Source: Crocinitomicaceae bacterium (lineage in GTDB: Bacteria; Bacteroidota; Bacteroidia; Flavobacteriales_D; Crocinitomicaceae). From it: a stretch of 64,000 nucleotides of DNA. The stretch covers positions 1-64,000 of the forward strand of contig JAQVCM010000007.1 of the NCBI GenBank assembly GCA_028689775.1. Reading direction: 5' to 3'. The notes below the pieces were generated by a model. The model was not told the origin of the DNA, ran no database searches, and worked only from the letters and a program-made list of their open reading frames with translations. Below, in pieces: positions 6,343 through 51,410 of the stretch. A program made the translations under genes and the position numbers. The number at the start of each line of letters is the position of its first letter. The stretch's first letter is position 1.

Positions 6343-7545
6343 TTATTTCCTAGTTACGTTCCCAAATACAATTTCTCTATCAGAAAACAATTTCTCTGAT
6401 TGGTTTGAATTATTAGCAAAAGTTCCATTCATTAAAATCCGAACTGCTTCTTCCACTTGTGAAACTTGAATCAATTTCATACAAGAATTATTTCCTTTGC
6501 AAGGTGGAATTAAAAATTCATGCACGCAAGGACTGCAGTACAAATTCATGTAGATTGGGTAAACCGTTGGACCAATTGCATATTGTTGTGGTGAACAAGG
6601 TCCAAACAAAGCGACACTTTTTTTACGCATCGTCGCCGCTAAATGCATTGGTCCTGTGTCATTTGTAATTACCAAAGAAGCTTGGGCAATCATTTTTAAT
6701 AAACCTGAAATGGATGTTTTACCGCTGAAATCCGCCACGCGTGGAGTGTCATTAAATTGAGAGGAAATTTCACTAACGTAAGACGCTTCAGATGGCGAGC
6801 CAATTAAATGAATGTCAAAGTCTGGATATTGAACGAGTAAATGTTGAATTAATTGAATGAAACTTTCTTTTGTCCACCTTCTTTCAATTCTCAAATCAGA
6901 AGCATTTGGATTGATGATAAAATACGGTTTATTTGCTTTTTCGTATTGCTCAAAAACGTATGAATCAGAAATTATTTCTTTGCATTTCAACAACCGTGCA
7001 AATTGCAAATAAGCTTCTGTGATTGGCGCATCAGTGTTAAAATACATCATGTGCGTGTACATTCCCAATCGATATTGACTTGTTTTTGAGTAATATCCGA
7101 ACCGATCGTGCGCCATGCTCATCGTTGCAATGATACTTGAATAATTTGCGTAAATTTCTAAATCGATGTATAAATCAATCTTTTTTCCAATTAGTTTTCG
7201 AACCAAATTAAAACTGGTAAAAAGCAATGAAAAAATCTTTCGGTCATCGACATAAAGACCTTCGTCAATCCAACTAATTTCGTTAATTATTTTCTGATTT
7301 TCGATTGAACTTACAAAGATAATTTTTGCGTTCGGATATTGTTTTCTAAGCGTTGCGATTAAAGGAGTTGATTGAATAATACTTCCCATTCCTTTAAATT
7401 TGCAAATGACAATGGAATGAATTGGACGTGTTAATGAATGATCGAATTTTGTGAAAAATCCAACAAGTCGAACCAATAAATTAAGTGGATAGGCCACCGA
7501 AATTCCTAAAATAGTATCTAATATTATTTTTCTTCTAGTATTCAA
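6343..7545 (-). CDS. Glycosyltransferase family 9 (heptosyltransferase-like)
   Basis: The 400-aa protein is a GT-B fold enzyme of the ADP-heptose:LPS heptosyltransferase family, expected at the cytoplasmic face of the inner membrane in lipopolysaccharide or other surface glycan assembly. Evidence: FKGMGSIIQSTPLI near 50-63, PNAKIIFVSS, and the C-terminal nucleotide-sugar site NDTGPMHLAA near 293 followed by VALFGPCSP. The start is a TTG at 7545, overlapping the preceding gene by 11 nt. No ATG precedes the conserved N-terminal block, and the N-terminus IILDTILGISVAYPLNLLVR resembles Bacteroidota homologues. Cysteines near 340-355 (CSPCVHEF, CKGNNSC) are unusual and might bind metal. The sugar donor cannot be told. 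Confidence 0.88.
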   Translation of the reverse strand: MNTRRKIILDTILGISVAYPLNLLVRLVGFFTKFDHSLTRPIHSIVICKFKGMGSIIQSTPLIATLRKQYPNAKIIFVSSIENQKIINEISWIDEGLYVDDRKIFSLLFTSFNLVRKLIGKKIDLYIDLEIYANYSSIIATMSMAHDRFGYYSKTSQYRLGMYTHMMYFNTDAPITEAYLQFARLLKCKEIISDSYVFEQYEKANKPYFIINPNASDLRIERRWTKESFIQLIQHLLVQYPDFDIHLIGSPSEASYVSEISSQFNDTPRVADFSGKTSISGLLKMIAQASLVITNDTGPMHLAATMRKKSVALFGPCSPQQYAIGPTVYPIYMNLYCSPCVHEFLIPPCKGNNSCMKLIQVSQVEEAVRILMNGTFANNSNQSEKLFSDREIVFGNVTRK

Positions 7546-10219
7546 TGTTCAATTTTTTCAAATGAATTGATTCAATTTCAATTGGTTTTTCATAATGTAA
7601 TTCAAATTCTACTTTTTCATGTAATCTCATTTCATAAGAACAACCTATCGGAAGAATGTATCCGTGGTTTCCTTTTTTTAATTCGATTACCCATTTCATT
7701 AAGATTTGATTATCAGATGCGTTAGCTTGATTAATTACTAATGTTTGATCTTCGTTACTTTTTAGTTTTAACGATAGAAAATCGTCTGAAGCTACATTTT
7801 CAAGTGTAAAAGATCTTGATTCAAATGAAATAGATTTACTCTCGCCCCACTTTTGTTGTTTTTCGGGTTTCCAAAAATAAGCGTTTAATCCAAGGTTCCA
7901 AATCTTTGTATTGTCATTTAATTCAAAAAGATTTTGATTATCTGCTGGTAATTTCTTTTCCCGAGAAATCCAAATTTGAAATCCTCCGATTACTTTGTAC
8001 GGTTGATAATTTTTGTAAATGTATTCGGTAATTCGATAATGGCGAACTGCATTTGGAATGCCATCCATGTTGTCGAAAAAATGTGCAGGTTGTCTGCTGA
8101 AAACGACGTATGGAATCTTGTAGTTCTTGAGCTGACGAATATTTTCTTCTTGCAAGAATCCATCAATGGTGTTTTGCATGTATTGCGCAAAATAGGAGGG
8201 AACATTCTTTTGAGAATAGTAATACAGCATCGGAGCGTTCGCCAAGTCGATAAATGTTTCGTCTTTTTTTAGATTCTGCTTTAAGAAAGTTACCAATTCC
8301 CATATTTCATGATTTTGTCCGCCAACTGTTCGTTCAATTTTTTGATTTTGTAGTGCAGGTAAATCCTTTACAGTGAAAGTTCGATTTTTGTTCAAGATCG
8401 CTGAGTGAAAATCAATTGAACGAATGGAAAGCAACATTCCACCTGGAATTAAAGCGACTAAAATCCAACCTTTTTTAAGTTGGGTAAAATGATAAATATA
8501 AAGGATTAAAATGATCCAAGCGATTGAAGCGATCGTCGTTTCATTTTGTTCCATGAAACTATGTCGAACCAATCCGCGTTGCAAGTTCATGAAATAGAAA
8601 CCGATTAAAAAGAGTAACGGATAAAAGAAAACCGATTTTTTGTGCTCACTGATTTTAATCAAAAGTAAAACGAAAATAACACCGATCGAAAGCGGTAAAA
8701 ATATGAAATTGATATAAAATAAATTTGAAAATTCAGGAGTTAATCTTTCGTAACCGTGCGCTTGTGAACCTGAAAAATAATGTGCCATTTGAGGCAGAGC
8801 CGTAGGATTTGAAAAATGAATTAGACCGATAATTAGTAAGCCTAACGACGCTAAAACGGTCAATAAGAATACGATTTTCTTTCGATGCATGCGCATATCC
8901 CAGAAGACAAATGGCATTATGATTGCAATTCCAACGACGATGCTGATTCCTAAATCTACTCTCCAAAAACAGAGGATTACGGTTGAAATCGCAGTGTAAA
9001 TTAAGTGCTTAAAGTTTTCAGTTTCAAAATATTTCAATAAAAAGATGAATGGAATGAAGGCAAAAGCAAAACGATACGGTAAATAAAGTTGTAAAAACGG
9101 AAGAAATAAGATGATTCCAAAAGCTAAAATGGCATTGGAAAACGTGTTTTTTACAAAGAAATATAAAACCAATGCTGAACTAATGTAAATGAATCCTTTG
9201 TAAATCGACGGATCTTGTGTGTAGTTCAAGTCATTAAAAAAAACGTAGATTGATTGCCAAAAATAATCACTCACCAAGTGAGAAGATAAGTAATCCGTAA
9301 AAGGGATTTTAGCATACAGATGATTTAACATCAATGGATTCAATTCATTAGCCGTTTCGAAAAATTCTTCGTGCCAGTTTTGAATCGGCGCGTAATATTG
9401 AAAAAGTACGTACCCAATTACAACTATTGGTAGTTGTAGATGAATTAAATTCATCCGAGAAATCCTTTTCCGAAGAGACCATAAAAAACCGAATATGCCG
9501 ATGTTAAATAAGATAATTCCTGGCAAGAAAGAACTGGAAAATATACCACGTTGATTCGCAATCATCGTAGCTTCGACACCTAAAAATAGTGTCAGTGGTA
9601 AAAGGGTTACCCATAAATTAAATAACGATTGATAAATCGAATTTAGATGTGCAAATGCAAAATTTAGAATAAATACGATCACCACAGTTATCCACCAATT
9701 CCCAACTACTAAATACAAAGCAATGAGCTGAACGAAAGCGATAAGAAGCTGCTTGTTTGAAAAATAAGAATCTTGAATTTTTTTCGGTAAAAGTGAAATT
9801 GCGATCAGGCAGAACAAAATGGTATTCAACAACCAAAATGAATTCGATTTTTGAATGTCAACAAGAATACTTAAGCTTAGTACAATTTGAATAAGTACAA
9901 TTCCTTTAATTGTATTTTCCCTCATTTTCAAAAATGAAAGCGAAATCCACTTTTTGAATATAAAATAGGAGCAAAGTGCTGTAAATATTCCCACAAACAG
10001 CGTTTTGTAAGTAAGACCAATTCTTGATGCTACATCAATTTCATTCGCCGTTGCAACTCCGATCGTAAAAGGAGTATTTTGATCTAAAAGAATGTTTTGA
10101 TTTTTGATAAAAAATAAAGTGCTAAGCAATCCTATGAAAATAGCCAAAACTAGTTTTAGGTCTAGTTTTGAAAGAAAATCTTGCTTGTTTTCTTGTATCA
10201 ATTGCTTGTCAGAATTCAT
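7535..10219 (-). CDS. Giant polytopic membrane protein, possibly GT-C glycosyltransferase
   Basis: The 894-aa protein has about 14 or more hydrophobic segments in residues 25-620, followed by a soluble C-terminal domain of about 270 residues. This layout resembles GT-C glycosyltransferases and related polytopic surface-polymer proteins that use lipid-linked sugars, but no confident catalytic DxD or equivalent signature was identified. An acidic loop around HEEFFETANELNPLMLN (near 285) could hold an active site. It is the upstream partner of the GT9 gene, which starts within its last 11 nt, so the two are likely translated together. A role in exported glycan assembly is inferred from this linkage and the nearby divergent flippase. 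Family membership is uncertain. Confidence 0.6.
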   Translation of the reverse strand: MNSDKQLIQENKQDFLSKLDLKLVLAIFIGLLSTLFFIKNQNILLDQNTPFTIGVATANEIDVASRIGLTYKTLFVGIFTALCSYFIFKKWISLSFLKMRENTIKGIVLIQIVLSLSILVDIQKSNSFWLLNTILFCLIAISLLPKKIQDSYFSNKQLLIAFVQLIALYLVVGNWWITVVIVFILNFAFAHLNSIYQSLFNLWVTLLPLTLFLGVEATMIANQRGIFSSSFLPGIILFNIGIFGFLWSLRKRISRMNLIHLQLPIVVIGYVLFQYYAPIQNWHEEFFETANELNPLMLNHLYAKIPFTDYLSSHLVSDYFWQSIYVFFNDLNYTQDPSIYKGFIYISSALVLYFFVKNTFSNAILAFGIILFLPFLQLYLPYRFAFAFIPFIFLLKYFETENFKHLIYTAISTVILCFWRVDLGISIVVGIAIIMPFVFWDMRMHRKKIVFLLTVLASLGLLIIGLIHFSNPTALPQMAHYFSGSQAHGYERLTPEFSNLFYINFIFLPLSIGVIFVLLLIKISEHKKSVFFYPLLFLIGFYFMNLQRGLVRHSFMEQNETTIASIAWIILILYIYHFTQLKKGWILVALIPGGMLLSIRSIDFHSAILNKNRTFTVKDLPALQNQKIERTVGGQNHEIWELVTFLKQNLKKDETFIDLANAPMLYYYSQKNVPSYFAQYMQNTIDGFLQEENIRQLKNYKIPYVVFSRQPAHFFDNMDGIPNAVRHYRITEYIYKNYQPYKVIGGFQIWISREKKLPADNQNLFELNDNTKIWNLGLNAYFWKPEKQQKWGESKSISFESRSFTLENVASDDFLSLKLKSNEDQTLVINQANASDNQILMKWVIELKKGNHGYILPIGCSYEMRLHEKVEFELHYEKPIEIESIHLKKLNIEY

Positions 10220-34475: not shown

Positions 34476-35198
34476 CTAGTTTCCGATCCCACATTTAATA
34501 CCAATCGATAGTACAACGTTTGCTGAGGAGGATTTTTTATCTTGCCATTGTTCCTTCCATTCATTAGAAACACCATCATAGTAGGAGTTTGCGATTGATG
34601 TGCGATCCGTGTAATGACCAATTCCAATTCCTACGTAATAATCCAAAGCGAACTGCTTAGCAACCCACTGTTGTATTCCAAAATTGAATGAGAAAATGTT
34701 TTGTTTTGAAAACCCTTTACGATTTTCCAACGCACTTCCTGCTTTTGGGGAAAACATTTCGTTGTATTGTTTGTACTTGTATTTTGGTGAGATATAAAAT
34801 TGATTCAAGGCTGGTCTTCCATCCAGAGGATAAAAACGAAGAGCAATCGAACCAAATCCGCCCATACTTGTGTTTCTAGAACCATTGATTGAGCCGTCGT
34901 TATGTAAACTAAAACGGTTAATTCGAAGATTGGAAACAGTTGGGCCAGCTTCAATTTCGAAAGATGTTTTTTGTCCAATTACGCGTTCATAAGACAAGGC
35001 AATGTCACCAATCATTAAACGCATGGCGTCAAACTTAAACACGTTATCGTGTTCTACCCAATCTCTAGATAAATAATCTTCTTCGTGAGATTTATTCCTT
35101 TTTTCTGGCGCTGCATTTCGGTCAATAACAATTACTTCACGTTGCGCAAAAACAGATAAACTAGTTAAAAAACAGCCGATTAAAAACACTTTTTTCAT
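34476..35198 (-). CDS. Secreted outer-membrane beta-barrel protein of unknown function
   Basis: The 240-aa protein has a signal peptide (MKKVFLIGCFLTSLSVFAQ) and alternating strands with a typical barrel composition (IALSYERVIGQKTSFEIEAG, GFGSIALRFYPLDGRP, LDYYVGIGIGHY). A DRNAAPEKRNKSHEED segment follows cleavage. It resembles the DUF3575-type or general porin-like barrels of Bacteroidota but was not assigned. The ATG at 35198 is used; a TTG six nt upstream is not needed. It is transcribed alone. Confidence 0.75.
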   Translation of the reverse strand: MKKVFLIGCFLTSLSVFAQREVIVIDRNAAPEKRNKSHEEDYLSRDWVEHDNVFKFDAMRLMIGDIALSYERVIGQKTSFEIEAGPTVSNLRINRFSLHNDGSINGSRNTSMGGFGSIALRFYPLDGRPALNQFYISPKYKYKQYNEMFSPKAGSALENRKGFSKQNIFSFNFGIQQWVAKQFALDYYVGIGIGHYTDRTSIANSYYDGVSNEWKEQWQDKKSSSANVVLSIGIKCGIGN

Positions 35199-35514
35199 AT
35201 TCAAAATTTTAATTTACAAATTAAAAGGAGAATGATTTGTAGAGAGATTAAGAATAAAGTTAATCAATTATTTGAAGTACGTTCAATTACACTGAAAATT
35301 TAACCTAGATCTAGTCGTTGATCAACGGAAAATGAAAATTGTATTCCGATATGATAGCGGTAAACATATTTATTGAATAAGGAAGAAAATCTGTCCCATA
35401 ACTGCTAGGACAGTTTTGTAGTATTTCCCACCTTAAGTTTTACCAATAAAAATGTTGATACCTTTAAAATCTACAATTTTCATGGTATCACAATCAGACA
35501 GTCACATTAATAGA
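35199..35514. other. Intergenic stretch; nothing recognised
   Basis: About 315 bp between two minus-strand genes. Only a short plus-strand frame (35452-35661) exists and it overlaps the nucleotidase coding end. No terminator for the nucleotidase operon was recognised after 35515. Confidence 0.4.
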
Positions 35515-36417
35515 TTAATCAATCAAAATCAATTGCGATTCATTCTTAAAGTTTTTCCCAACATAAAAATCAATTCTCCCCAATTGAACACCAGCCCAAC
35601 CCACTTGATTGATCAAGGTTGGATTGCCTTTTACGTTCATTTCAACGGTTGGTTTTTCTAAAAATGTATGCGTATGACCACCGATGATTAAATGGATTCC
35701 TTCGGTTTGTTGTGCGAGTTTGATATCGGATATTTTATCGTTTCCGTAGGAATAACCTAAATGCGAAAGACAGATGATCAAATCTGCACCTAATTCTTGC
35801 AATTCGCGAACGCGGTCTTGGGCAATTTCAACCGGATTTAAATATTCCACTTCTTTGCACAAAGCATCGGGTACCAAGCCTTTTGTTTCAACTCCCAAAC
35901 CAAAAACGCCTATTTTGATGTTTCCTTTTTGGAAAAGGTGGTGTTTTTTTGTTTGACCGTCTAAAATGGTGTTTTTAAAATCGTAATTGGAACACAAGAA
36001 TGGAAAATCGGCATAGGCTTTGGCTTTTAGAAATCCATCCATTCCTGCATCAAAATCATGGTTTCCCATGGTTGCGGCATCGTATTTCATGGAAGTCATC
36101 AATTTCAATTCCAAAACACCTCCAAAACGATTGAAGTAGGGCGTACCTTGAAAAATGTCGCCGGCGTCTAATAATAAAACATGCTCTTCTTGTTGTCGAA
36201 TCTCTTGTACCAATTCATAGCGACGAGAAACGCCACCCAAACCAGGATATTTGGCATGATTGGCAGGAAAAGCATCGATGTTGGAATGCGTGTCGTTGGT
36301 ATGAAGAATGGTTATTTTGGTGGTTCTTTTTAAATTGGGTGCCGCAATTAAATTCGGAGCGATTGCCAATCCGCCTAAAACCAATCCGGTATTTTGTATG
36401 AATTTTCTTCTTTCCAT
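35515..36417 (-). CDS. Metallophosphatase half of a split 5'-nucleotidase
   Basis: The 300-aa protein is the calcineurin-like catalytic domain of the UshA/5'-nucleotidase family, which releases phosphate from extracellular nucleotides. Metal motifs in order are ILHTNDTHSN, LLDAGDIFQGTP, TMGNHDFDAGMD and IGGHTHTFLE; all ligands are present. The N-terminus has RRKFIQNTGLVLGGLAIA, a twin-arginine-type signal (RRKF), so a folded, cofactor-loaded export is likely. The C-terminal nucleotide-binding domain is absent and is encoded by the next gene upstream, 6 bp away. It is last in the proposed DNA-scavenging run. Confidence 0.93.
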   Translation of the reverse strand: MERRKFIQNTGLVLGGLAIAPNLIAAPNLKRTTKITILHTNDTHSNIDAFPANHAKYPGLGGVSRRYELVQEIRQQEEHVLLLDAGDIFQGTPYFNRFGGVLELKLMTSMKYDAATMGNHDFDAGMDGFLKAKAYADFPFLCSNYDFKNTILDGQTKKHHLFQKGNIKIGVFGLGVETKGLVPDALCKEVEYLNPVEIAQDRVRELQELGADLIICLSHLGYSYGNDKISDIKLAQQTEGIHLIIGGHTHTFLEKPTVEMNVKGNPTLINQVGWAGVQLGRIDFYVGKNFKNESQLILID

Positions 36418-36423
36418 CGTGTT

Positions 36424-37131
36424 TTATTTAATTCTCGGTTGCTGATTGTCTTTTAAAATCGCTTGTTTTTGAACGGATTCAATCAATACATCTCGGAATA
36501 AAATTCCCGGTTCGATGGTTTCCAAACGCTTTTGAAAAAAGTACATGCGATCGCCGCCATTCATCAAGTAATCAGATGTAATGACCCAAAAGTCTTTCGC
36601 CTGCCATGGATTTCCATAGACATCGAAAACGTTTAAACTGTCGATGCTGAATCCAGCAATAGGTTCACCACCTGATTGTTTTAAATACGCTCTGATTTCC
36701 TCCATGGTTTCAGCAGGCATTTTTACCAACACCATTTGATTGTCAAAAGGCATTACTTTAAAAATGTCTCCCAAGGTGATATCTCCTTTATTCAACGGCG
36801 CACGAAGTCCACCAAAGTTCAAGAGACAAACTACGTGGGAATCCGCAACCAAAGTTTTTCCCTTTTCAAGGATGATATCGGCAATCAAATTTCCCAAGTT
36901 TCCCCAAGGTTTGTTGTTGACGAAATCCACTGCGGCGTGCGTGATGACTTGATTCATTTCCGCATCCAATTGGGTTTTATACGGCGTTACAATCGAATCT
37001 ACTTTGGCAGAATTCGGATAGGTTTTGTCTATCGGAATGCTTGCCGTTTTCACAAAAGTCTCTTTACCAAAAGAGCAGGCCGTTAAGCCTGCTCCGATGA
37101 TAAATATCAATATATTTAATTTCAATTTCAT
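36424..37131 (-). CDS. 5'-nucleotidase C-terminal domain lipoprotein
   Basis: The 235-aa protein is a 5_nucleotid_C domain without a catalytic domain. The lipobox LTACS (Cys19 by count) predicts a membrane lipoprotein. Substrate-binding elements are present: NFGGLRAPLNKGDITLGDIF and FDNQMVLVKM, plus the C-terminal MNGGDRMYFF. It most likely pairs with the metallophosphatase product to make a complete nucleotidase. Its ATG overlaps the endonuclease stop region by 1 nt (TAATG on the minus strand), so coupling is likely. Confidence 0.9.
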   Translation of the reverse strand: MKLKLNILIFIIGAGLTACSFGKETFVKTASIPIDKTYPNSAKVDSIVTPYKTQLDAEMNQVITHAAVDFVNNKPWGNLGNLIADIILEKGKTLVADSHVVCLLNFGGLRAPLNKGDITLGDIFKVMPFDNQMVLVKMPAETMEEIRAYLKQSGGEPIAGFSIDSLNVFDVYGNPWQAKDFWVITSDYLMNGGDRMYFFQKRLETIEPGILFRDVLIESVQKQAILKDNQQPRIK

Positions 37132-39311
37132 TACTCAATAATCAATGAACGTTGAACATCTCCGTAAGGAGTTGAAACGCGAACGATGTAAGAACCTGAT
37201 TTCAATAAAGAAGTATTCACTTTCACAACCGAAAGGTTAGTCGTTTCATGCATCACTTTTCTACCTTGCATGTCGATGATTTCAAAAGCATCGATAGAAG
37301 TTCCATCTACATTCAAGAACAATTCGTTTTTCGCTGGATTTGGATAAACGATGAAAGCATTTGCTAATTTCTCTTCTACTCCTAAACCTTCACAACCTTC
37401 AGCAAAATAATTCATGGATGAGAAGTTGATGTAGCAAGCGAATTCTGGATGATCTACGAATGGATTACGGTTTGACTGTAATGAATCGATAAAATCATTT
37501 CGAGCAATCTCCCAATTACTTGGAGGATCCATGATGTTCCATTGTTTCAAAATCGTTTGATCTTGACCGTAGTTAATTGTAGAAGAAATAGGATTTGGGA
37601 AAGCCCAGTTTTTACCATCTACAGAGTTGTAAGTAATTGCTTCGTAAAACAGAGCTCTTGCAGCATCCCCTTTGTGGTCATCTTTCGGTTCGTAAACGAA
37701 TCTTCCGTTGATGTCTTTACCAAATTTAGCATTCATAAACGTACTTGTAACCGTAACTACTTCTCCTAAAGGATAGTTGCTTCGTATTGCATTTGCATCA
37801 TTTTGGTTTGCTGGAAATAAATGGTGGTAATCACTGTATTCTTTTGAATCTGTATTGTTAGGGGATGTTGGCATCCAAGAATGACAATAGGTGTGTTCAC
37901 GACTAAAATTATTTGCTGTATATGCAAATGGCTCCGTGTAAACTACATTCTGACCACTATACACACAAGTCAACACACGTTGATTGTTCACGGTATCTCT
38001 TGCGATGAACAAGTTGATGAATTTACTGATGTAATCACTGTAATAACGTTGTGTATGTGGGTATGTTTTATCGTGTAAATCTGCAACAAATGTATTGCTT
38101 AATGGGTCGATTGTAGAATAATAACCGGCTGGCATCATAGTAGCAGGTGTAGTTGCAACTGCCGTTAATGGAGCTGTTGTATTGTAAGCAATTCCCGATC
38201 CAGTTCCATTGTATGTAAATACCGCAAAGTGGAAATTACTACCTGCTGTAATGTTACTTGGGTAAAAAGAAGTTTGTGTTCCGCTGTAAACTACTTGTGC
38301 ATCGCCTACAATATCACCTCGTTGATACGTCATTCCATTTGTTGGAGCACCAGTAATTGGAGCACCATTTTTTCTAAGAACAATGTAACCTGCTACATTC
38401 GCTGCTGGAGTGAATGCACCTTTAAAACGGTACGTTTTCACATCTGTAAAAGTCAAATTAGTTGCTTGAACCGTTGGTGCAGAAGCTAAACCATTTCCAT
38501 AACCAATCAAGTTGATGATGTACGGATTTTCATCTGCATCGTTGTTTCCAATCGTTAAAACGGCATTTCGTGTTCCTGCTGCAGCAGCGGTAAACGTAAT
38601 GGTGAAGTTTTGGGAGGAAGCAGCAGTTACAGATGTAGGAACTGTTCCAAGTACAAAATCACTTGCGTTAGCACCAGTTATTGCAGAAGAAGTAATGTTC
38701 AATAAGTTTACAGTTCCTAAGTTTTCAATGCTCATTGTTTTAGGATTGGCAACACCTACGTTACTTGAGAAAATCAAATCAGAACCACTAATGATTGTAC
38801 TTGCTCCATCTTTGATGTTGATTTCTTGTTCTGGCCCTGCTGGAGCTGGAGTTATTGTTACGTTATCTAGACCAACATTTCCAGCTGTTTTCAAGGTGTA
38901 AATAAATTTCACGTATCTACTTGCTGCATTCAAAGTTTGAACTTTTGCAACATACGTCCCACCACCTGAAGAAGCGATATCAGCTCCGTGAGAGAAAACA
39001 GTTGTAAATGTAATTCCATCTACAGACTCTAGCACGTCAAAAATACCTGGAGCAAAAGAGTTTCCGGCAATATCATACGTTACTGTTCCTGGATTACTTG
39101 CAAAGTGGATTAGTAAAAACTTTCCAGTTTGCGCCAACTTAAGCGAAGGACCTGGATTTCCACCTGCATAGGAATCTAAACCTGTATTGGAAGTCCAATT
39201 GGCAGGTAGCGTTGTTGTTGCGAAATCATAAGTTGTCGGTAAAACCGCTTGAGCGATACCTGAAAGTTGAAAAGCAACGATCAGCAAGGCTGAATAAATT
39301 ATTTTTTTCAT
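37131..39311 (-). CDS. Secreted endonuclease I with choice-of-anchor and T9SS sorting domains
   Basis: The 726-aa protein starts with a signal peptide (MKKIIYSALLIVAFQLSGIA), has a jellyroll region (30-150), an ASH/choice-of-anchor D domain (about 158-270, GPEQEINIKDGA), a linker (275-385), and an endonuclease I domain (about 400-640): FSREHTYCHSWMP, DYHHLFPANQNDANAIRSNY and DDHKGDAARALFY. The His, Asn and Asp/His residues fit the beta-beta-alpha-Me nuclease site. The tail (650-726, FIVYPNPAKNELFLNV) is a type A T9SS sorting signal, so it is exported across the outer membrane. It probably degrades extracellular DNA. It follows the receptor gene by 23 bp. Confidence 0.93.
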   Translation of the reverse strand: MKKIIYSALLIVAFQLSGIAQAVLPTTYDFATTTLPANWTSNTGLDSYAGGNPGPSLKLAQTGKFLLIHFASNPGTVTYDIAGNSFAPGIFDVLESVDGITFTTVFSHGADIASSGGGTYVAKVQTLNAASRYVKFIYTLKTAGNVGLDNVTITPAPAGPEQEINIKDGASTIISGSDLIFSSNVGVANPKTMSIENLGTVNLLNITSSAITGANASDFVLGTVPTSVTAASSQNFTITFTAAAAGTRNAVLTIGNNDADENPYIINLIGYGNGLASAPTVQATNLTFTDVKTYRFKGAFTPAANVAGYIVLRKNGAPITGAPTNGMTYQRGDIVGDAQVVYSGTQTSFYPSNITAGSNFHFAVFTYNGTGSGIAYNTTAPLTAVATTPATMMPAGYYSTIDPLSNTFVADLHDKTYPHTQRYYSDYISKFINLFIARDTVNNQRVLTCVYSGQNVVYTEPFAYTANNFSREHTYCHSWMPTSPNNTDSKEYSDYHHLFPANQNDANAIRSNYPLGEVVTVTSTFMNAKFGKDINGRFVYEPKDDHKGDAARALFYEAITYNSVDGKNWAFPNPISSTINYGQDQTILKQWNIMDPPSNWEIARNDFIDSLQSNRNPFVDHPEFACYINFSSMNYFAEGCEGLGVEEKLANAFIVYPNPAKNELFLNVDGTSIDAFEIIDMQGRKVMHETTNLSVVKVNTSLLKSGSYIVRVSTPYGDVQRSLIIE

Positions 39312-39334
39312 ATATATAATTATTTATTTTAAAC

Positions 39335-42166
39335 TTAAAACTGTAATGCTATTCCTAGGTTGAATCTTAATCCAGAACCATACATCACGCCAACTGAGTT
39401 TTGATCAAAACCAGGACCGTATGTGCTTGATAAATTTGCATCTGAAATAAAACGTGTATCCAATACATTGGTAATCGAACCACTAAATACCAATTCAGAT
39501 CTTCTTAGTTTTGTTTTTTTCGTTTGAGAAGAAAGGTGCGCTAGTATTTCGGAACTGGAACCAGTTCCAACGTGCGATTTAAAGCGATATCTATATCCCG
39601 CAAATAAATTCATCAATCCATAAGATGGAGATTTCCAAGAATCTCTACCTGCATTGGCTCCTGTTAAGATGAATGGATTAAATTCAGAGTAAAAACGGTC
39701 AAAGTACATGTATTGAACTTTAATGTAGATGTTCTTTTTCGGTTCGTATCGAAGTCCTGCTGTGTAAGTCGATTGTGGTGCATCACCTACGTGAACGCCT
39801 TTGGCATCAAAAGAAACTGTAGTGTTGTATGCTGGAAGAACAACCGTTTGAGATGAGTTCCAAGTCCAATCACCATAAGAAACCGCTGCTTCTAAGGATA
39901 GTTTTTTACTGATTGCAAAAACTCCATCTACTTCAACTCCTAAGTGAACGGCATCCATTCCTTGTACGTTTACACGAATTGTTGATAATGGATCTTCTGG
40001 ATCTGGAACTGCTAATCCGTTCGGGAAAGGTTTGTTTTTCCAGTTCGTTGCGTATGCATTCACATTAATTCCAAAACGTTTGTGAGAAATGTTGTACCCC
40101 AATTCAAGCGCTGAAATGACTTCATTTTTTATTTCTGCAAAGAAACGGTTATAATTATTATCAATCACGTTGGTAAACATCGGTGTACGAGATAAATAAC
40201 CGATATTGATGAATACATTTGAGTATTCATTCAGATTGTATCCAGCACCTGCTTTGATTGTTGCGCCTGGAATCCATTTCCAATCGGTTTGATTGTCTTT
40301 TAATCCGGAGCTATTTGCAGTGTATGCTTGACCACCATAATTCACCGTGTCATTCAAGCCGATGTATAGCACCGTGTCACTCAAATGCATTTCTTTTTTA
40401 CGGAAATAATCTGTTCCCTTGTAACCATTGTAAACTCCAGTTATGTTCACGAAAGCTGTCCATCTTGCACCACTGTATTCAGCTTGACCAAATACACCAG
40501 CCCATTGAACCAATCCATCGCGGTTGTTTTCATACGGTTTTCCGGCATCTGCTATTTTGTCTCCTTTTCGTTTGATGTTATCAGAGTTCGCATTTCCACT
40601 GTTTACGTAGTAATCACCGCCTAATAAATCAACGACTTCACGGTAGTGTTCTCCTTTGTACATGCGGTAATCCACACCTCCAGAAAAACTCCATTTTGAA
40701 TTCATTTCATAATTGAACTGACCTAAGTAACCCAACCATTTGTGGTTGTTTACACTTGCAGTCAACACATTACTAGCTTTGAATTCGTTTGGAGAGTAGA
40801 AAGGATCGTAGTTTGGTTTTGTAACTCCAAAAACAGTCGTATACTGATTCGCTTTGATTACTCGATCCCAATCGATCAAGCCTCTTGAATCTCTAGGTAC
40901 ACCAGAAAAGTTGGATAGTTTGGTTCCACCTCCGCTTCCCACAGAAGCATAAATGATATTGGAAATGGATAATTTGTTATTTACTTGCCAGAAATCTTTT
41001 AAAGTGAATTGATTTTTGTTGTAGTAATTAGTTTTCTCAGAAATAATGTTTTTTCCGTCTACTCGAAAAGTAGCTAAACCTTTTTCATAATCGCCTGAAA
41101 CATATCCGTAATGCTCATTATAGCGAATTCCTCGATTCAAATTTTTCGCCGTTGGAAGATAATCTACGTCGTATTTATCCGCGTCTTCTTTACTCCAATA
41201 TGGTATTTTTTGGTTGAAAGATCGTTGACCGTGTTTTTGAGGAGCCCCAAATGCACTGAACGATATCAAATGTTTTTTGTATTTCTTCTGAACTTTTGCG
41301 TAATAGAAACCACCAATTGAAGGCGTTCCATCTACCCATCCATCCGATTTTTTGAAAGAACCAGCAAGGGTAATTCCCCAACCTTTCTTCATCATTCCGG
41401 AATTATATGCCAATGAAGTTCGCAACATATTTCCTGATGCGTATTCTTGTTTTACAGTTAGTTTTCTTTGATTTCCAACACCTGCAGTCAGAATGTTTAA
41501 AGTTCCACCAACGGAAGGCATGGCTAATTTAGTTGCACCCAAACCTCTTTGTACTTGGATACTTTGGGTAATGACATCCAATCCAAACCAGTTGGACCAA
41601 TAAACGGAACCATTTTCCATGTCGTTTACTGGAACACCGTCAATCATTACACCTACATTTCGTTGACTAAATCCACGAACCGTAATTCGCGAATCGCCGT
41701 CACCACCACCTTGTTGCGTAGCATATACACCCGGCGTAGCATTTAAAAGCATTGGAATATCGCGAGAACCTAATTCTTCTTCAATTCGTTTTGGATCGAT
41801 GCGCGTTACAGGTACAGGAGTTCTTCTACCGGTAACGATACCTCCAATTACTTGAATTTCTTCTAGTTCCAATGTTTGACCAATTGCAACAACAAGAGTT
41901 GTCGTTGGTTGATTGATTTTGATTTTTCGGACTAATGTGTCTTGCAGAGAAGCAATTAGTGTGTAGTCGCCGTAGCTTACTTTCGTGAAAGTAATTTTAC
42001 CATCTACGTCGGCTGTGCCTTTGATATTTTGATTTAAACTTACCTTCGCAAAAGGTACTGTTTCTTTGGTGCTATAGTCCGTTACAACAATCGTAACTTC
42101 ACTAGTTTGTTGAGCAGCAGCGAAAAAAGGGATAATAAAAAGGGAAAGGATTAGAAAACGGTTCAT
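39335..42166 (-). CDS. TonB-dependent receptor with carboxypeptidase-D regulatory domain
   Basis: The 943-aa outer-membrane importer has a signal peptide (FLILSLFIIPFFAAA), a CarboxypepD_reg-like domain (22-95), a plug (about 120-225 with DSRITVRGFSQRNVGVMIDG) and a 22-strand barrel ending LGIALQF with the terminal Phe. It uses TonB energy to import a substrate that is too big or scarce for porins. Cargo cannot be read from sequence; the following secreted nuclease and nucleotidase point to DNA fragments, nucleotides or nucleosides. No SusD partner is encoded. It is downstream of the lamin-tail gene past a hairpin at 42191-42224. Confidence 0.93.
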   Translation of the reverse strand: MNRFLILSLFIIPFFAAAQQTSEVTIVVTDYSTKETVPFAKVSLNQNIKGTADVDGKITFTKVSYGDYTLIASLQDTLVRKIKINQPTTTLVVAIGQTLELEEIQVIGGIVTGRRTPVPVTRIDPKRIEEELGSRDIPMLLNATPGVYATQQGGGDGDSRITVRGFSQRNVGVMIDGVPVNDMENGSVYWSNWFGLDVITQSIQVQRGLGATKLAMPSVGGTLNILTAGVGNQRKLTVKQEYASGNMLRTSLAYNSGMMKKGWGITLAGSFKKSDGWVDGTPSIGGFYYAKVQKKYKKHLISFSAFGAPQKHGQRSFNQKIPYWSKEDADKYDVDYLPTAKNLNRGIRYNEHYGYVSGDYEKGLATFRVDGKNIISEKTNYYNKNQFTLKDFWQVNNKLSISNIIYASVGSGGGTKLSNFSGVPRDSRGLIDWDRVIKANQYTTVFGVTKPNYDPFYSPNEFKASNVLTASVNNHKWLGYLGQFNYEMNSKWSFSGGVDYRMYKGEHYREVVDLLGGDYYVNSGNANSDNIKRKGDKIADAGKPYENNRDGLVQWAGVFGQAEYSGARWTAFVNITGVYNGYKGTDYFRKKEMHLSDTVLYIGLNDTVNYGGQAYTANSSGLKDNQTDWKWIPGATIKAGAGYNLNEYSNVFINIGYLSRTPMFTNVIDNNYNRFFAEIKNEVISALELGYNISHKRFGINVNAYATNWKNKPFPNGLAVPDPEDPLSTIRVNVQGMDAVHLGVEVDGVFAISKKLSLEAAVSYGDWTWNSSQTVVLPAYNTTVSFDAKGVHVGDAPQSTYTAGLRYEPKKNIYIKVQYMYFDRFYSEFNPFILTGANAGRDSWKSPSYGLMNLFAGYRYRFKSHVGTGSSSEILAHLSSQTKKTKLRRSELVFSGSITNVLDTRFISDANLSSTYGPGFDQNSVGVMYGSGLRFNLGIALQF

Positions 42167-42190
42167 TTCTTAAACTTAAATTATTAAATA

Positions 42191-42224
42191 AAAAAAGAGG
42201 CAGAAATGAATCTGCCTCTTTTTT
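42191..42224 (-). terminator. Intergenic terminator/attenuator between lamin-tail gene and receptor
   Basis: AAAAAAGAGGCAGA (42191-42204) pairs with TCTGCCTCTTTTTT (42211-42224) across 6 nt, with a T-run on the minus strand. No TAnnTTTG lies between it and the receptor ATG at 42166, so the receptor run may depend on partial read-through. Confidence 0.85.
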
Positions 42225-42229
42225 TTGTT

Positions 42230-43261
42230 TTAGTTTTTAACAATTAATCTTTTTGTAGCAGTACCTGCTGCTGTTTCAATTTGAACAATAAACAAACCTG
42301 GAGAATTTCCGATTTGAACGTTCGCGTTGTTTGTATTTGGTCTTGTTTTCTTCACAACTTGTCCTAAAGTATTGTAAACTGTAATAGACTTGATGTTTTC
42401 AGAAGAAATCACATTAAATGTTCCATTTGAAGTTGGGTTTGGATAAACATCCATTTGAACTGCTTCAACAACTGAAGTTGATAATGAGTTACAGTTACAA
42501 TCGTGAGAACCTAAAGAATCCCAATTTCCAAATCTAACCGGTGCACCAGCAGCACTTTTGATTGTATCACCGTTTGCATCAAATCTGAAAACCAATGGTG
42601 GTAAAGAATCCCATTCTACTAAGGCATTGAATTCGGCTGGAATTGCATCTGTGTTTCCTTTTAGAATCGATGCTTTACGAATTAAAGAGTGATCTTTCGT
42701 AATCGCAACACCAGCTCCAGCAGAACCGTCGTATGGTGCAGCTGTTGACCAACCTCCATTCGGTCTTTCACCAACTTTACCAATCACGTCAATTACTTCT
42801 GTGTTTGGAATTGTTGACAACTCAACGTTTAAAGCAAAACCAGCAACACTTCCTTTCATTAATAATACGGCATCATCACCGTTAAAATTCATTGCATTAC
42901 TTACATCGTAAGAAGAACAGAAGAAACCATCAGCCAATGCTTGAAGTTCATCCCAAGCTGCTGGGTCAGATGCTGTAGCATTTCCTGCGTTACGGTCGAT
43001 AACTGCTACAAATGTTCCGTGTGCTGGAACTGTTCCGATCAATTGAACCGCATTTTGAACCGTTGCTGCTGTTGTTCCATTGTTATATCTCGCTAGGAAA
43101 TATTCACTTAAATCAATTGGTGCATTGGTTGGATTGTAAATTTCCAATGCTTTGTTGTTTCCTAAACCTTCAACATATTCAGAAATAAAAATTTTCGTAC
43201 AATCTTGAGCGAATGATGATCCGATTGTAAAAAGGCTGACAAAGAGTAAAACTTTTTTCAT
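42230..43261 (-). CDS. Secreted lamin-tail-domain protein with T9SS sorting domain
   Basis: The 343-aa protein has a signal peptide (MKKVLLFVSLFTIGSSFA), an LTD (lamin-tail) domain at about 20-180 (KIFISEYVEGLGNNKALEIY and APIDLSEYFLARYNNG are characteristic), a linker, and a type A T9SS sorting domain at about 270-343 (VYPNPTSNGTFNV, ending KRLIVKN). LTD domains occur in bacterial secreted nucleases and polymer-degrading enzymes and may bind DNA or polymers; no nuclease motif is present here. The start at 43261 is favoured over an ATG 30 nt upstream. It is likely the promoter-proximal gene of the scavenging run. Confidence 0.9.
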   Translation of the reverse strand: MKKVLLFVSLFTIGSSFAQDCTKIFISEYVEGLGNNKALEIYNPTNAPIDLSEYFLARYNNGTTAATVQNAVQLIGTVPAHGTFVAVIDRNAGNATASDPAAWDELQALADGFFCSSYDVSNAMNFNGDDAVLLMKGSVAGFALNVELSTIPNTEVIDVIGKVGERPNGGWSTAAPYDGSAGAGVAITKDHSLIRKASILKGNTDAIPAEFNALVEWDSLPPLVFRFDANGDTIKSAAGAPVRFGNWDSLGSHDCNCNSLSTSVVEAVQMDVYPNPTSNGTFNVISSENIKSITVYNTLGQVVKKTRPNTNNANVQIGNSPGLFIVQIETAAGTATKRLIVKN

Positions 43262-43657
43262 AATTATAGATTTTATTTGTGGGAAATACATAAGCAGTGC
43301 GTGTTTTCTTTCTCCTGAATAGGATGAAAACGGACGTCTTTAAAACAAGTATCGATACGTTGAAACCTGATGGTATTCAAGAGTATGAACATTTATTTCT
43401 CTTTTTTTGTTTTGTTTTTTAAATGGTTTCAGTCTGTTCTTACGAACACCGTCAAGGGTAACACTCAAAAACTTAATGCAAATGTAAGACTTTTTTTTCG
43501 GTCTACAGATTACTAAACTATTAACATTACAATAGTTTTTATACACAATTTGCTCCTTTTACACGTAGATATGGAGGTGTAAATAGCATTTGAAAACGAG
43601 ATTTGCATCGTATTTGGTGGAAAAGAAGTATTTTTATCTTTTCAAAAACCCTCAATT
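43262..43657. other. Divergent intergenic region; no gene seen
   Basis: About 395 bp between the lamin-tail gene and the plus-strand peptidase gene. The frame 43340-43546 (minus, 68 aa) has low-complexity basic sequence and is judged spurious. No perfect -7 box for the minus run was found, so its promoter remains unknown. Confidence 0.5.
43613..43642 (+). promoter_or_regulatory. Putative promoter of the first DPP-IV-type gene
   Basis: TTTG (43613-43616) is followed after 18 bp by TATCTTTT (43635-43642), which matches TAnnTTTG at seven of eight positions. Transcription would begin near 43648, giving a leader of only about 10 nt. Confidence 0.5.
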
Positions 43658-45874
43658 ATGTTTCAAAAAATTAAATTACTTTCTTTTGGTTTTTCGCTGC
43701 TATTTATTCAAGCAGCATTTGCGCAAAATGTACCAGCTAAGCCGTCCGGAATTGTAAAAGCGCCAATCACGGTTGAAAGTATCTGGAAGAATTATGAATT
43801 TTCTTCAAGAGGTTTTGCCGGTTTTAAAGGAATGAAAGATGGTGAACATTTCACCAAAGTAAATCAAACCAAAACTTCTTTCAGCATCACCAAGCAGAAA
43901 TACATGCAACACGATGGAGTAGGTGAAGTACTCTTGACAAATTCAGACTTGATGTTTGAAGGAAGAAAGATTTCAATCGATGATTACGATTTCAATCAGC
44001 AGGAAGATAAAATTTTGATAACGAGTGAAATGCAATCGGTTTACCGAAGAAGTTACGTCGCGAATTTTTTCATCTTTGATTTAAAAACAAAGAAAATTTC
44101 AGCTTTGGATTCTAAACGATTGGGTTCGACTTTGGCTGAATTTTCTCCGGATGGAACGAAAGTTGCCTATGTTTTTGAAAACAACATGTATGTGAAAGAT
44201 TTAGCCAGCAACAAAATCACAGCGATTACGACGGACGGTTTGTCCAATTCAATTATCAATGGAACAACAGACTGGGTTTACGAAGAGGAATTTGCGATCA
44301 CCAAAGGTTTTTCTTGGTCATTTGACAGCAAGAATATCGCGTTTTTGCGTTTTGATGAATCGGCAGTAAAAGAATTTCAGTTGGAATATTACGGTAATTT
44401 ATATCCAGATATTTACACCTATAAATACCCGAAAGCTGGAAAAGATAATTCGAAAGTGACGACACACATCTATAATTTGACAACGAAGAAAAAATCGAAA
44501 TTAGATCTAGGATCTTATGAATACATTCCAAGATTCAAATGGTCGGGAAGTGCAAATCAGTTGGTGGTTCAGACTTTGAACAGACATCAGAATCACGTTC
44601 AATATCATTTGTTTGATTGGACTCAAAAGAAAATGACTTCCAAAGTGATTTTCGAAGAGAAATCAGACACATACGTAGAGATTGATGACAATTTATTGAT
44701 TTTGAAAGATGGAAAAACCATTTTAAGAACGAGTGAAATGGATGGGCACATGCACATCTATGAAGTTGGTTTTGATGGTTCAAACAAGCAAGTCACCAAA
44801 GGAAATTGGGATGTAATCGAATTTTTAGGAATTGATGAAAGTTCACAAACTATTTATTACACATCCGCAGAAAAAGGTGCGATTTACCAAGGAATTTATA
44901 GTATTCAAATCGACGGAAGTAATAAGAAAGCAATCAGTGAAGAAACCGGATACAATGCGGCTGAATTTGCGCAAGGAATGACTTATTTCGTGAAAAGAAG
45001 TTCGACAGCAAACACACCAACCGTAACCAGTTTATGCTATAAAACGGGTGAAGTAGTTGCTGTATTAGAAGACAATCAGACTTTAAATGAAAAGCTTTCA
45101 GTTTACGATTTAACGACCAAGGAATTCATCACCATTAAAGGTGCGACGGAAGATTTGAATGCGTGGATCATGAAACCAAAGAATTTTGATGCAAGCAAAA
45201 AATATCCAGTTTACATGACCATTTATGGCGGACCTGGAAGCAATACCGTAAAAGATGCTTTTGGAGGAAACGATTACATGTATCATCAATTGTTGACGCA
45301 GCGAGGTTATATCGTTATAAGTGTTGATCCAAGAGGAACCATGTATCGTGGAACGAAATTTAAAAAATCAACGTACTTGCAATTGGGTAAATTAGAGACA
45401 GAAGATTTCATTGCAGTTGCCAAAGAATTGGGAAAAATGGATTTCATCGATAAAAACCGAATTGGAATTCAAGGTTGGAGTTATGGTGGTTACATGTCTT
45501 CATTAGCGATGACAAAAGGAGCAGACTACTTCAAAATGGGAATTGCGGTCGCACCGGTTACCAATTGGAGATATTACGACAACATTTACACGGAAAGATT
45601 CATGCGAACGCCGCAGGAAAATGCGGCTGGATATGACGATAATTCACCGATTAATTTTGTGAAAAACATCAAAGGAAACTACTTTTTAATTCACGGTTCG
45701 GCAGATGACAATGTGCATAATCAGAATGCGATGGAAATGGTGAATGCATTGGTGAAATCAAACGTACAATTTGATTTATTTATCTACCCAAATCGCGATC
45801 ATGGAATTTACGGAGGGAATACCCGAAACCATTTATTCAACATGCTTTTAGATTATACGCTTAAAAACTTGTAA
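43658..45874 (+). CDS. S9 family dipeptidyl peptidase IV (paralogue 1)
   Basis: The 738-aa periplasmic serine peptidase has a signal peptide (FGFSLLFIQAAFAQ), an N-terminal eight-bladed propeller (DPPIV_N), with the Glu pair in DWVYEEEFAITKGFSWSF, and a C-terminal prolyl-oligopeptidase catalytic domain. The triad is Ser in GWSYGGY (near 607), Asp in GSADDNVH (near 682) and His in NRDHGIYGG (near 714). It removes Xaa-Pro dipeptides from peptides and so takes part in protein use. A second homologous gene lies at 49.3-51.4 kb on the other strand. Confidence 0.95.
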   Translation: MFQKIKLLSFGFSLLFIQAAFAQNVPAKPSGIVKAPITVESIWKNYEFSSRGFAGFKGMKDGEHFTKVNQTKTSFSITKQKYMQHDGVGEVLLTNSDLMFEGRKISIDDYDFNQQEDKILITSEMQSVYRRSYVANFFIFDLKTKKISALDSKRLGSTLAEFSPDGTKVAYVFENNMYVKDLASNKITAITTDGLSNSIINGTTDWVYEEEFAITKGFSWSFDSKNIAFLRFDESAVKEFQLEYYGNLYPDIYTYKYPKAGKDNSKVTTHIYNLTTKKKSKLDLGSYEYIPRFKWSGSANQLVVQTLNRHQNHVQYHLFDWTQKKMTSKVIFEEKSDTYVEIDDNLLILKDGKTILRTSEMDGHMHIYEVGFDGSNKQVTKGNWDVIEFLGIDESSQTIYYTSAEKGAIYQGIYSIQIDGSNKKAISEETGYNAAEFAQGMTYFVKRSSTANTPTVTSLCYKTGEVVAVLEDNQTLNEKLSVYDLTTKEFITIKGATEDLNAWIMKPKNFDASKKYPVYMTIYGGPGSNTVKDAFGGNDYMYHQLLTQRGYIVISVDPRGTMYRGTKFKKSTYLQLGKLETEDFIAVAKELGKMDFIDKNRIGIQGWSYGGYMSSLAMTKGADYFKMGIAVAPVTNWRYYDNIYTERFMRTPQENAAGYDDNSPINFVKNIKGNYFLIHGSADDNVHNQNAMEMVNALVKSNVQFDLFIYPNRDHGIYGGNTRNHLFNMLLDYTLKNL

Positions 45875-49283: not shown

Positions 49284-51410
49284 CTACTTATTCTTCTCAA
49301 TCACATAATTCAATACTTTTTCCATCAAATGCACGCGGTCTTTTCCGCCTACGTTGTGTTTGTGCATTGGATACGGGAAGAAATCCATTTGAATTCCGTT
49401 ATCAACGAATTTCTTTACCAAAGCTAAATTATGTTGCATCACAACAACATCATCAACCGTTCCGTGAATTAACAACAAATCGCCTTTTAATTTGTCAGCA
49501 TAATTCAACAAACTACTTTTCTTATATCCTTCCGGATTTTGTTCTGGACGATCCATGTAGCGTTCTCCGTACATCGCTTCGTAATATTTCCAATCGGTAA
49601 CTGGTCCGCCAGCAACACCAACTTGGAATACGTCTGGGTGACGCAATAGCAATGAAGTTGTCATGAAACCACCAAACGACCAACCGTGAACTGCCAAGCG
49701 ATTTCCATCAACGTATGGCAAAGATTTTAAGTATTCAACACCCGTCAATTGATCTTCCATTTCTAAATCGCCCAATCTTCGGTGAATTCCGCTTTCGAAA
49801 GCAAAACCTCTTTCGCCAGAACCGCGGTTATCCAAGGTGTAAATCAAATAGCCTTGCTCCGCCATCCAATGCATCCACAAACTAGAACCGTCCAACCAAG
49901 AGTTGGTGATCATTTGTGCGTGCGGACCACCGTAAACATATACCAAAACGGGATACTTTTTAGATGCATCGAAATCACTTGGTTTGATTAAACGCGTGTA
50001 TAATTTGGTTCCGTCATTTGCAGTAAGCGAACTGATTTCTGTTTTTCCAATCTTATAATCCGCTAATTTGTTTTCAGAAGTCATTAAGGTTTGAACTTCT
50101 TTTCCTGTTCCGTCTAATAAAAGCGATTTGGAAGGCGTGTCGTGATTGGAATATTCATCAAAAATCCATTTTCCGTTGGATGAAACCCAAACAGAATGCG
50201 TTCCTTCATTTGTCGTAAGCAAACGTTGTTTTCCATTCATGTCAACAGCGTAAAACAAAGAGTTTGTTGGATTTTCACCCGTTGCTTCAAAAACAATTTC
50301 TTGTCCGTTTAAAGTCGATGAATGGATGTTTTTAGTTACAAATTTATTGTTCGTCAATTTGGTTTTTAAATTTCCATCGATGTCGTATAAGTACAAGTTG
50401 TTAAAACCATCTCTCTCACTAATCCAAACAAAATCAGTTGAGTTATCAGCAGGGAAAAATGCTGGATGTTCTGGTTCAATCCATTTATCGTTTGTTTCTT
50501 CAAACAACGTTTTGATGAATTTTCCTGATTTCGCATCGTATTTATTCAACCACATGTGGTTTTGATCGCGGTTTACTTCAGCAATCAACAGATAACTTTC
50601 GTCAGATGACCAAGAAACATTCGTCAAATAGAAATCTGCATCTCCGCGCGGACAAATGTAGACTGCCTTTCTAGTTTTGAAACTGTAAATGCCAATTTTA
50701 GGTTTTTCAGATTTCTGACCAGTCATTGGATATTTAATCGACTTTAATTCTCCAGGAGTTGGATTGATGTCCAACAAAGGATAATTATGAACTTCTGATT
50801 CATCTTTCTGAGCAAAAGCCAAATAACTTCCTTTTGGTGACCAGAAAATGCCGTTTGTAATTCCAAATTCACTTCGAGCGTATGTTTGACCAGAAACGAT
50901 GTTTTTATCTTTGTTTTTTGTAATCACATGTGTTTTGCCTTCTGTATCCGTAACTGATAAATTGTTCTCGATTGTAAAAGCTACTTTTTCAGTTTTTGGT
51001 TCGATGGTCGCATTTTCTCCATTTTCAGGAACTGAAACAATTTTCTTACCCGTTTTTAATTCGGTGTTGAAAGAATAGTAATTCGCTCCGTCAGTCAACC
51101 AAAATGTTTTGGAGTCTTTCCATTCCATTCCAGAAAACCAATTTAATTTTGAACCTAAAATTTCGTTCACTTCTGCAATTGTAAACCATTGAGTCGGTTT
51201 TTCAGTCACCGAACCCTTCATCAAAGTGACATATCCTTTTAAATAGGTGTAATTTTCCGTTTCAGGAATCCATTTGAAAAAAATCATTTGATCTGGAACA
51301 AAAGCGCGGTATTGGTTCATCACTGCATCTTTTAATGTCAGTGATTTGGTTTGAGAAATGCTGATTGAACTTATCAGACAAAAACCAATAAAGATTAGTT
51401 TTTTGAACAT
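49284..51410 (-). CDS. S9 family dipeptidyl peptidase IV (paralogue 2)
   Basis: The 708-aa periplasmic serine peptidase has a signal peptide (KLIFIGFCLISSISISQ), a DPPIV_N propeller and the catalytic domain. Active-site residues are Ser in GWSFGGFMT, Asp in GTVDDVVVMQ and His in PMHKHNVGG. FGITNGIFWSPKGSYLAF in the propeller carries the conserved region. It differs from paralogue 1 in the N-terminal Glu motif (ARSEFGI, single Glu instead of EEEF), so substrate N-terminus recognition may differ. It follows the DUF2461 gene by 14 bp. Confidence 0.95.
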   Translation of the reverse strand: MFKKLIFIGFCLISSISISQTKSLTLKDAVMNQYRAFVPDQMIFFKWIPETENYTYLKGYVTLMKGSVTEKPTQWFTIAEVNEILGSKLNWFSGMEWKDSKTFWLTDGANYYSFNTELKTGKKIVSVPENGENATIEPKTEKVAFTIENNLSVTDTEGKTHVITKNKDKNIVSGQTYARSEFGITNGIFWSPKGSYLAFAQKDESEVHNYPLLDINPTPGELKSIKYPMTGQKSEKPKIGIYSFKTRKAVYICPRGDADFYLTNVSWSSDESYLLIAEVNRDQNHMWLNKYDAKSGKFIKTLFEETNDKWIEPEHPAFFPADNSTDFVWISERDGFNNLYLYDIDGNLKTKLTNNKFVTKNIHSSTLNGQEIVFEATGENPTNSLFYAVDMNGKQRLLTTNEGTHSVWVSSNGKWIFDEYSNHDTPSKSLLLDGTGKEVQTLMTSENKLADYKIGKTEISSLTANDGTKLYTRLIKPSDFDASKKYPVLVYVYGGPHAQMITNSWLDGSSLWMHWMAEQGYLIYTLDNRGSGERGFAFESGIHRRLGDLEMEDQLTGVEYLKSLPYVDGNRLAVHGWSFGGFMTTSLLLRHPDVFQVGVAGGPVTDWKYYEAMYGERYMDRPEQNPEGYKKSSLLNYADKLKGDLLLIHGTVDDVVVMQHNLALVKKFVDNGIQMDFFPYPMHKHNVGGKDRVHLMEKVLNYVIEKNK

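Follow-up and report, generated by a model that had tools for sequence, protein, structure and literature searches.

A lamin-tail protein, a TonB-dependent receptor and an exchangeable nuclease encoded together in Bacteroidia form a probable cassette for nucleic-acid acquisition at the outer membrane

Members of the Bacteroidota play a prominent part in the degradation of environmental DNA. Natural competence occurs in some of them that have no recognisable pili, and no established route is known that takes DNA or pieces of it through their outer membrane. In the duck pathogen Riemerella anatipestifer, in which no pilus homologues were found, transformation fell below detection after insertion into RA0C_RS04915, a mutation that is polar on RA0C_RS04920; the two genes encode a carboxypeptidase-regulatory-like outer-membrane protein and a DUF5689/DUF5017 protein, respectively, and a variant in F. 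columnare carries an extra gene between their counterparts (PMC8459023). Transformation of R. anatipestifer was also impaired in tonBA and tonBB mutants, the tonBB effect being ascribed to iron by the authors (PMC8383284). Phosphate (Pi) depletion of F. johnsoniae led to induction of Fjoh_4721 and Fjoh_4723 (4.66 and 4.13, probably log2 values; PMC8115612), and Fjoh_4723 (NucA) is a substrate of the type IX secretion system (T9SS; PMC10994853). Removal of the lamin-tail domain (LTD) from ExeM of Shewanella slowed activity in vitro and hardly affected it in vivo, where DNA was degraded without need of the domain (PMC6085458).

We analysed a stretch of 64,000 nucleotides from a Crocinitomicaceae bacterium (GenBank GCA_028689775.1, contig JAQVCM010000007.1, positions 1 to 64,000), referred to as the window. 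Five of its minus-strand genes probably constitute a TonB-powered, nuclease-centred cassette for DNA acquisition at the outer membrane. A sequence-only reading had placed these genes in the order lamin-tail protein, TonB-dependent receptor (TBDR), endonuclease I, 5_nucleotid_C and metallophosphatase with gaps of 68, 23, -1 and 6 bp. The order stands, and the intergenic gaps measure 63, 23, -1 and 6 bp, so that the first value had to be corrected. All five families were confirmed with Pfam and NCBIfam profiles against their curated cut-offs, as were the T9SS sorting domains claimed for the lamin-tail protein and the endonuclease (TIGR04183, 52.8 and 48.7 bits, cut-off 23).

The first gene (42230 to 43261, minus strand; start ATG at 43261 in the ORF list, with another in-frame ATG at 43291) encodes a protein of 343 aa with a signal peptide, an LTD (PF00932, 50.9 bits, cut-off 34.3), a conserved extension carrying the motifs GxxGEDP, DHTLIRK and GxHxCxC, and a T9SS type A tail matched by Por_Secre_tail (38.4 bits) and TIGR04183. 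The protein is acidic with a pI of about 4.4, a point against the reading as a DNA-acquisition cassette. Foldseek comparison of its AlphaFold2 model (pLDDT 87) retrieved T9SS C-terminal domains and, weakly, lamin A/C 1IFR (probability 0.99, rank 28, low TM). The model also matched the DUF4876 protein BT_1938 (4q1z; probability 0.98, low TM), and DUF4876 may be a surface family related to the lamin-tail protein. We tentatively propose a function in surface capture or docking, with the caveat that loss of the LTD from ExeM hardly matters in vivo.

An intrinsic-terminator-like hairpin with a 15-bp stem and a T tail, which reads on both strands, lies between the lamin-tail gene and the receptor gene (42190 to 42225, minus strand); the sequence-only reading had not mentioned it. 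Application of one fixed rule to all loci in which this gap exceeds 15 bp (n=96) revealed a terminator-like hairpin in 42 of them, with differing stem sequences, compared with 0.26% of shuffles that keep base content but not dinucleotides. In the receptor-nuclease gaps the same rule gave 0/40. Owing to the hairpin at 42190 to 42225, transcription is probably not even across the five genes. We propose that it acts as an attenuator, by which the lamin-tail protein would be made in excess of the receptor and the nuclease.

The receptor (39335 to 42166, minus strand; 943 aa) consists of a CarboxypepD_reg-like N-terminal domain, a TBDR plug (Pfam Plug, 58.8 bits) and a beta-barrel, the latter deduced from Foldseek matches, and belongs to a clade conserved across the class. 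Its AlphaFold2 model (pLDDT 82.5, pTM 0.78) resembles generic TBDRs including PqqU, Fiu and FhuA (best E 3.7e-41). A search of solved structures with the single receptor sequence gave no match, and a search with a receptor profile matched mainly the N-terminal region and the plug. Charge lends no support to polyanion transport, as the pI is not raised in comparison with other TBDRs (median 7.4 vs 8.8). A SusCD-type locus was considered and rejected because none of the five proteins belongs to the SusD family and the neighbour of the receptor is an LTD protein in 110/114 loci.

The third gene (37131 to 39311, minus strand) encodes a secreted endonuclease I (EndI) composed of a jelly-roll-like N-terminal module, a choice-of-anchor D domain, the catalytic domain and a T9SS type A tail. 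Endonuclease_1 (PF04231) matched with 97.9 bits (cut-off 25), accompanied by choice_anch_D and TIGR04183 (Pfam, NCBIfam). The EndI profile aligns with Vvn (1OUP) around its N-x-x-R-S-N site (E 8e-17), and R471-E472-H473 and N507 are invariant in 16 homologues. Following the literature on Vvn, we take the Glu-His pair to be catalytic and the Asn to be part of the metal site. With these residues intact, family membership suggests that EndI cuts DNA.

The two remaining genes encode the halves of a 5'-nucleotidase. The C-terminal (substrate) domain is a separate lipoprotein (36424 to 37131, minus strand; 5_nucleotid_C, 63.3 bits), and the N-terminal metallophosphatase domain is a separate protein with a Tat-like signal (35515 to 36417, minus strand; Metallophos, 66.3 bits) and the motifs DxH, GD, GNHD and GHTH. 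Both UshA/CD73-type domains are thus above cut-off, but on separate chains, which align to residues 319-413 (C-domain) and 2-261 (metallophosphatase) of the fused 5'-nucleotidase 2z1a. A lipobox-like N-terminus is present in 46 of 62 C-domain homologues, and 58 of 60 metallophosphatase homologues carry a Tat-like RRx motif followed by a hydrophobic residue. A broken single nucleotidase gene was rejected as an explanation, since the gene for the C-domain comes before that for the N-domain and relatives, too, have a separate export signal on each half. Besides the EndI and C-domain genes of the cassette, the genome (3.47 Mb) yielded no member of the Endonuclease_1 and 5_nucleotid_C families.

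The neighbouring genes scanned are housekeeping-like or unrelated (pyridine-nucleotide-disulphide oxidoreductase, DPP-IV peptidases, citrate synthase, GAPDH and an Mfd-like helicase). Two DPP-IV-type S9 peptidases are encoded in the window at 43658-45874 (plus strand) and 49284-51410 (minus strand); the former is divergent to the cassette, an arrangement kept through most of the family. A conserved 242-aa protein without Pfam match is encoded 310 bp downstream of the metallophosphatase gene (34476-35204, minus strand) and about nine relatives have it in the same place. It may be set apart from the metallophosphatase gene by a terminator-like hairpin (35391-35413).

Receptor homologues were collected from 199 genomes of the order and by a contig scan, lamin-tail homologues from 247 genomes of the class. 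Neighbourhoods were labelled with the proteins of the window prior to labelling with profiles built from the loci found. Among receptor homologues above 400 bits in loci of at least 9 kb (n=114), 110 have an LTD gene directly upstream, and the four others include two at contig edges or broken (L064, L088). A secreted nuclease is encoded at most four genes downstream in 101 of these 110 LTD-receptor loci (EndI 82, PLD 19). The full five-gene order is present in 54 loci, mostly from the family of the window, and the three-gene core of LTD protein, TBDR and nuclease in about a hundred loci from many families of the class Bacteroidia. This core was recovered both by the receptor search and by the LTD search, and it stays where the flanks change outside the family. 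Whether the gene order recurs in other genomes had been left to be checked; the core does so across the class, which rules out conservation among close relatives only. The constant part of the cassette is the LTD protein with the receptor; its nuclease can be EndI or PLD, and its nucleotidase is exchangeable as well. The nucleotidase pair is largely a family-level addition that most loci of other families lack; it is divergent and adjoins the LTD gene in loci L167 and L168. We found no description of the LTD-TBDR-nuclease order in the literature searched, whose silence does not establish novelty.

In many families the product of the third gene is of the PLD type, secreted, and equipped with DUF5689, fn3-like and T9SS domains, and two HxKx4D motifs are present in 20 of 21 PLD proteins. 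On a tree of 66 receptors and the receptor of the window, the nuclease type switches between EndI and PLD six times by parsimony, at least three switches being forced by supported branches. As EndI and PLD are unrelated folds that have nucleic-acid cleavage in common and occupy one slot, their exchange points to nucleic acid as substrate and is the strongest evidence for it that sequences provide. The argument is tempered by the fact that phospholipids, too, can be substrates of the PLD family. The N-terminal module of EndI is swapped too, being of the jelly-roll type in the window and DUF5689-like in L034, L068 and L069; DUF5689 modules occur on EndI, on PLD and as partner of a sister receptor described below. 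In locus L187, EndI, fn3, LTD and T9SS tail are fused in one protein with the same Pfam set as Fjoh_4721 and Fjoh_4723. In L187 (5604-10724) and L174 (8804-12802), a purL-type gene is directly preceded by tandem genes for EndI-type T9SS nucleases, of which at least one has fn3 and LTD fused to it.

A second system, likewise absent from the sequence-only reading, combines a TBDR with a DUF5689 lipoprotein. In 18 of 20 loci the lipoprotein gene comes next after the TBDR gene or is separated from it by one small gene, and 16 of the 20 contain an EEP nuclease gene. Examples found class-wide are L228, L233, L240 and L242-L246, mostly with a divergent Exo_endo_phos_3 nuclease. L228 and L233 carry the same PLD nuclease as the window-type system, and in L242 and L243 the nucleotidase pair (C-domain and metallophosphatase) adjoins the sister system. 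In L243, a gene for a Calx-beta-containing T9SS protein (7260-9230, minus strand) stands between those of the DUF5689 lipoprotein and the nucleotidase halves. The arrangement of L236 and L238 resembles the F. columnare variant. The TBDR-DUF5689 architecture matches RA0C_RS04915/RS04920, the two being likened by architecture, not by sequence. A search of the window's genome with PF18942 (DUF5689) gave no match, and the receptor studied here is without a DUF5689 lipoprotein partner. LTD receptors, DUF5689 receptors and a small third group (L296, L101) form one clade (99/97 support) that stands apart from the other TBDRs sampled, with long branches calling for caution. The third group is nearer to the LTD receptors than the DUF5689 receptors are. 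Its L296 receptor lies after an apparent pgi (read by eye). L101 (4373-14190) has a tandem pair of superclade receptors whose neighbours are an RND pump of the AcrB family and a fusion protein of CusB/HlyD type, and this branch is possibly metal-linked. Because of these neighbourhoods clade membership alone is no proof of DNA as substrate, and with the L101 receptors beside an RND pump the ancestral substrate may have been a different one.

The two systems were never found together. With presence called at E <=1e-78 for LTD and E <=1e-28 for DUF5689, the 199 genomes of the order comprised 129 with the LTD system, 47 with the DUF5689 system, 23 with neither and 0 with both. The expected overlap was 30 genomes unstratified and 11 stratified by family (P 9e-12, too small a value, because members of one family enter the exclusion tests as independent genomes). 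In the class sample (n=247), 62 genomes had the LTD system, 58 the DUF5689 system and 0 both. Genera g3, g29 and g39 contain both kinds in different species, and of the 66 genomes from the window's family, 62 have exactly one system. Four near-complete genomes of this family have neither system (G026, G157, G165, G183). The never-both pattern is as expected from isofunctional replacement.

In our preferred reading, the acquisition of nucleic acid, the lamin-tail protein and the nuclease would be exported by the type IX system, for which both carry the tails. The lamin-tail protein, presumably made in excess by virtue of the terminator, may hold DNA or dock the nuclease at the surface, where EndI, to judge from its family and its residues, would cut DNA. 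The receptor would then move DNA pieces or products across the outer membrane. Tat-exported metallophosphatase and lipoprotein substrate domain, if they assemble, would remove phosphate from nucleotides; the cell could feed on phosphate and nucleosides and, where DNA stays intact, possibly use it for transformation. Cooperation of the gene products on DNA, as put forward by the sequence-only reading, gains strong support from the conservation, the nuclease exchange, the Pi-induced fusion counterparts and the exclusive sister system; the cargo of the receptor may be nucleosides, phosphate, oligonucleotides or long DNA, to be used for feeding or for transformation. Tentatively, the LTD-TBDR pair could even be a TonB-powered DNA-uptake channel interchangeable with RA0C_RS04915/RS04920 for feeding and transformation, although we lean against this extension.

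Two further explanations are versions of DNA acquisition and overlap with the main reading. A gate for natural transformation, in which receptor and lamin-tail protein are mainly the outer-membrane channel for transforming DNA, on a functional par with RA0C_RS04915/RS04920, and nuclease and nucleotidase handle the excess, is rather unlikely. The sister receptor clade, the exclusion even within genera g3, g29 and g39, the one-of-two pattern in 62/66 family genomes, the RA0C_RS04915 insertion phenotype and the tonBA/tonBB mutants argue for it. On the other hand, RA0C_RS04915 was placed in the sister clade by architecture, not by sequence, the tonBB effect was put down to iron, and the distribution of ComEC as a transformation test was uninformative, since ComEC is nearly universal and offers no contrast. 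A degrading nuclease and a 5'-nucleotidase also suit feeding better. Scavenging of phosphate and nucleosides only, the version of the sequence-only reading, with DNA cut to nucleotides outside the cell, a receptor that imports nucleosides, nucleotides or phosphate and no DNA strand crossing the outer membrane, is to be judged unlikely in the same way. It is consistent with the split 5'-nucleotidase linked in 54 loci, the Pi-depletion response of the fused EndI-LTD proteins of F. johnsoniae (PMC8115612) and the assimilation of DNA by Lutibacter populations (PMC8289736). It is at odds with the sister system, which is needed for uptake of transforming DNA, and with the lack of the nucleotidase pair in most loci outside the family. 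Moreover, porins normally let nucleosides and phosphate pass, so that a receptor driven by TonB would be expected to carry something larger or scarce.

We consider it improbable that the nuclease trims biofilm or competitor DNA while the receptor imports something else, for instance a metal for the metal-dependent enzymes. Biofilm DNA is a frequent target of secreted nucleases, and the superclade receptors beside RND pump and CusB/HlyD-type fusion protein in L101 would fit a metal; this explanation fails to account for unrelated nucleases swapped beside a constant receptor, for a nucleotidase linked to two different receptor systems and for a sister system tied to transformation. Chance or mere synteny through slow rearrangement, to which the divergent upstream DPP-IV gene kept inside the family might point, is hardly credible, as the flanks change outside the family where the LTD-TBDR-nuclease core persists, and the linkage of 110/114 and 101/110 refutes a chance neighbourhood.

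With its class-wide occurrence, its interchangeable nucleases and its exclusion of a sister system that has a genetic link to DNA uptake, the cassette is a concrete candidate for the passage of DNA through the outer membrane. If the acquisition of nucleic acid by this cassette is true, TonB-dependent import would extend to nucleic acid and lamin-tail domains would gain a suggested bacterial role. If, as in the tentative extension above, the LTD-TBDR and RA0C-type pairs are interchangeable channels, they would together be the missing outer-membrane DNA gate of pilus-less Bacteroidota.

Among known systems, UshA/CD73-type 5'-nucleotidases share both domains and the catalytic motifs with the cassette, which splits the domains into two proteins with reversed gene order and lipoprotein versus Tat export signals. 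SusCD polysaccharide loci and phosphate Pus loci likewise encode secreted enzymes with a TBDR and a surface partner, whereas the cassette is without SusD and has a nuclease and a nucleotidase in place of glycosidases. In Izemoplasmatales, the loci for DNA degradation also unite LTD-linked nucleases, phosphohydrolases and transporters, but their LTD is part of the nuclease chain and they have ABC transporters without TBDR or T9SS (PMC8289736). ExeM shares the association of an LTD with an extracellular nuclease, again within one chain (PMC6085458). EndA1 and EndA2 of F. johnsoniae (Fjoh_4721/4723), phosphate-depletion induced and linked to T9SS export, resemble the locus in EndI, LTD and T9SS tail (PMC8115612, PMC10994853); they are fused proteins from orphan genes without a receptor, whereas separate LTD and EndI genes flank the receptor in the window. 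The R. anatipestifer-type system differs in its downstream DUF5689 lipoprotein and EEP nuclease, where the window has a T9SS lamin-tail protein upstream. RA0C_RS04915-RS04920 and the cassette have in common a TBDR-type receptor, probably of a related clade, with a surface partner, the presence of one or the other system per genome and, in some genomes, the PLD nuclease or the split nucleotidase.
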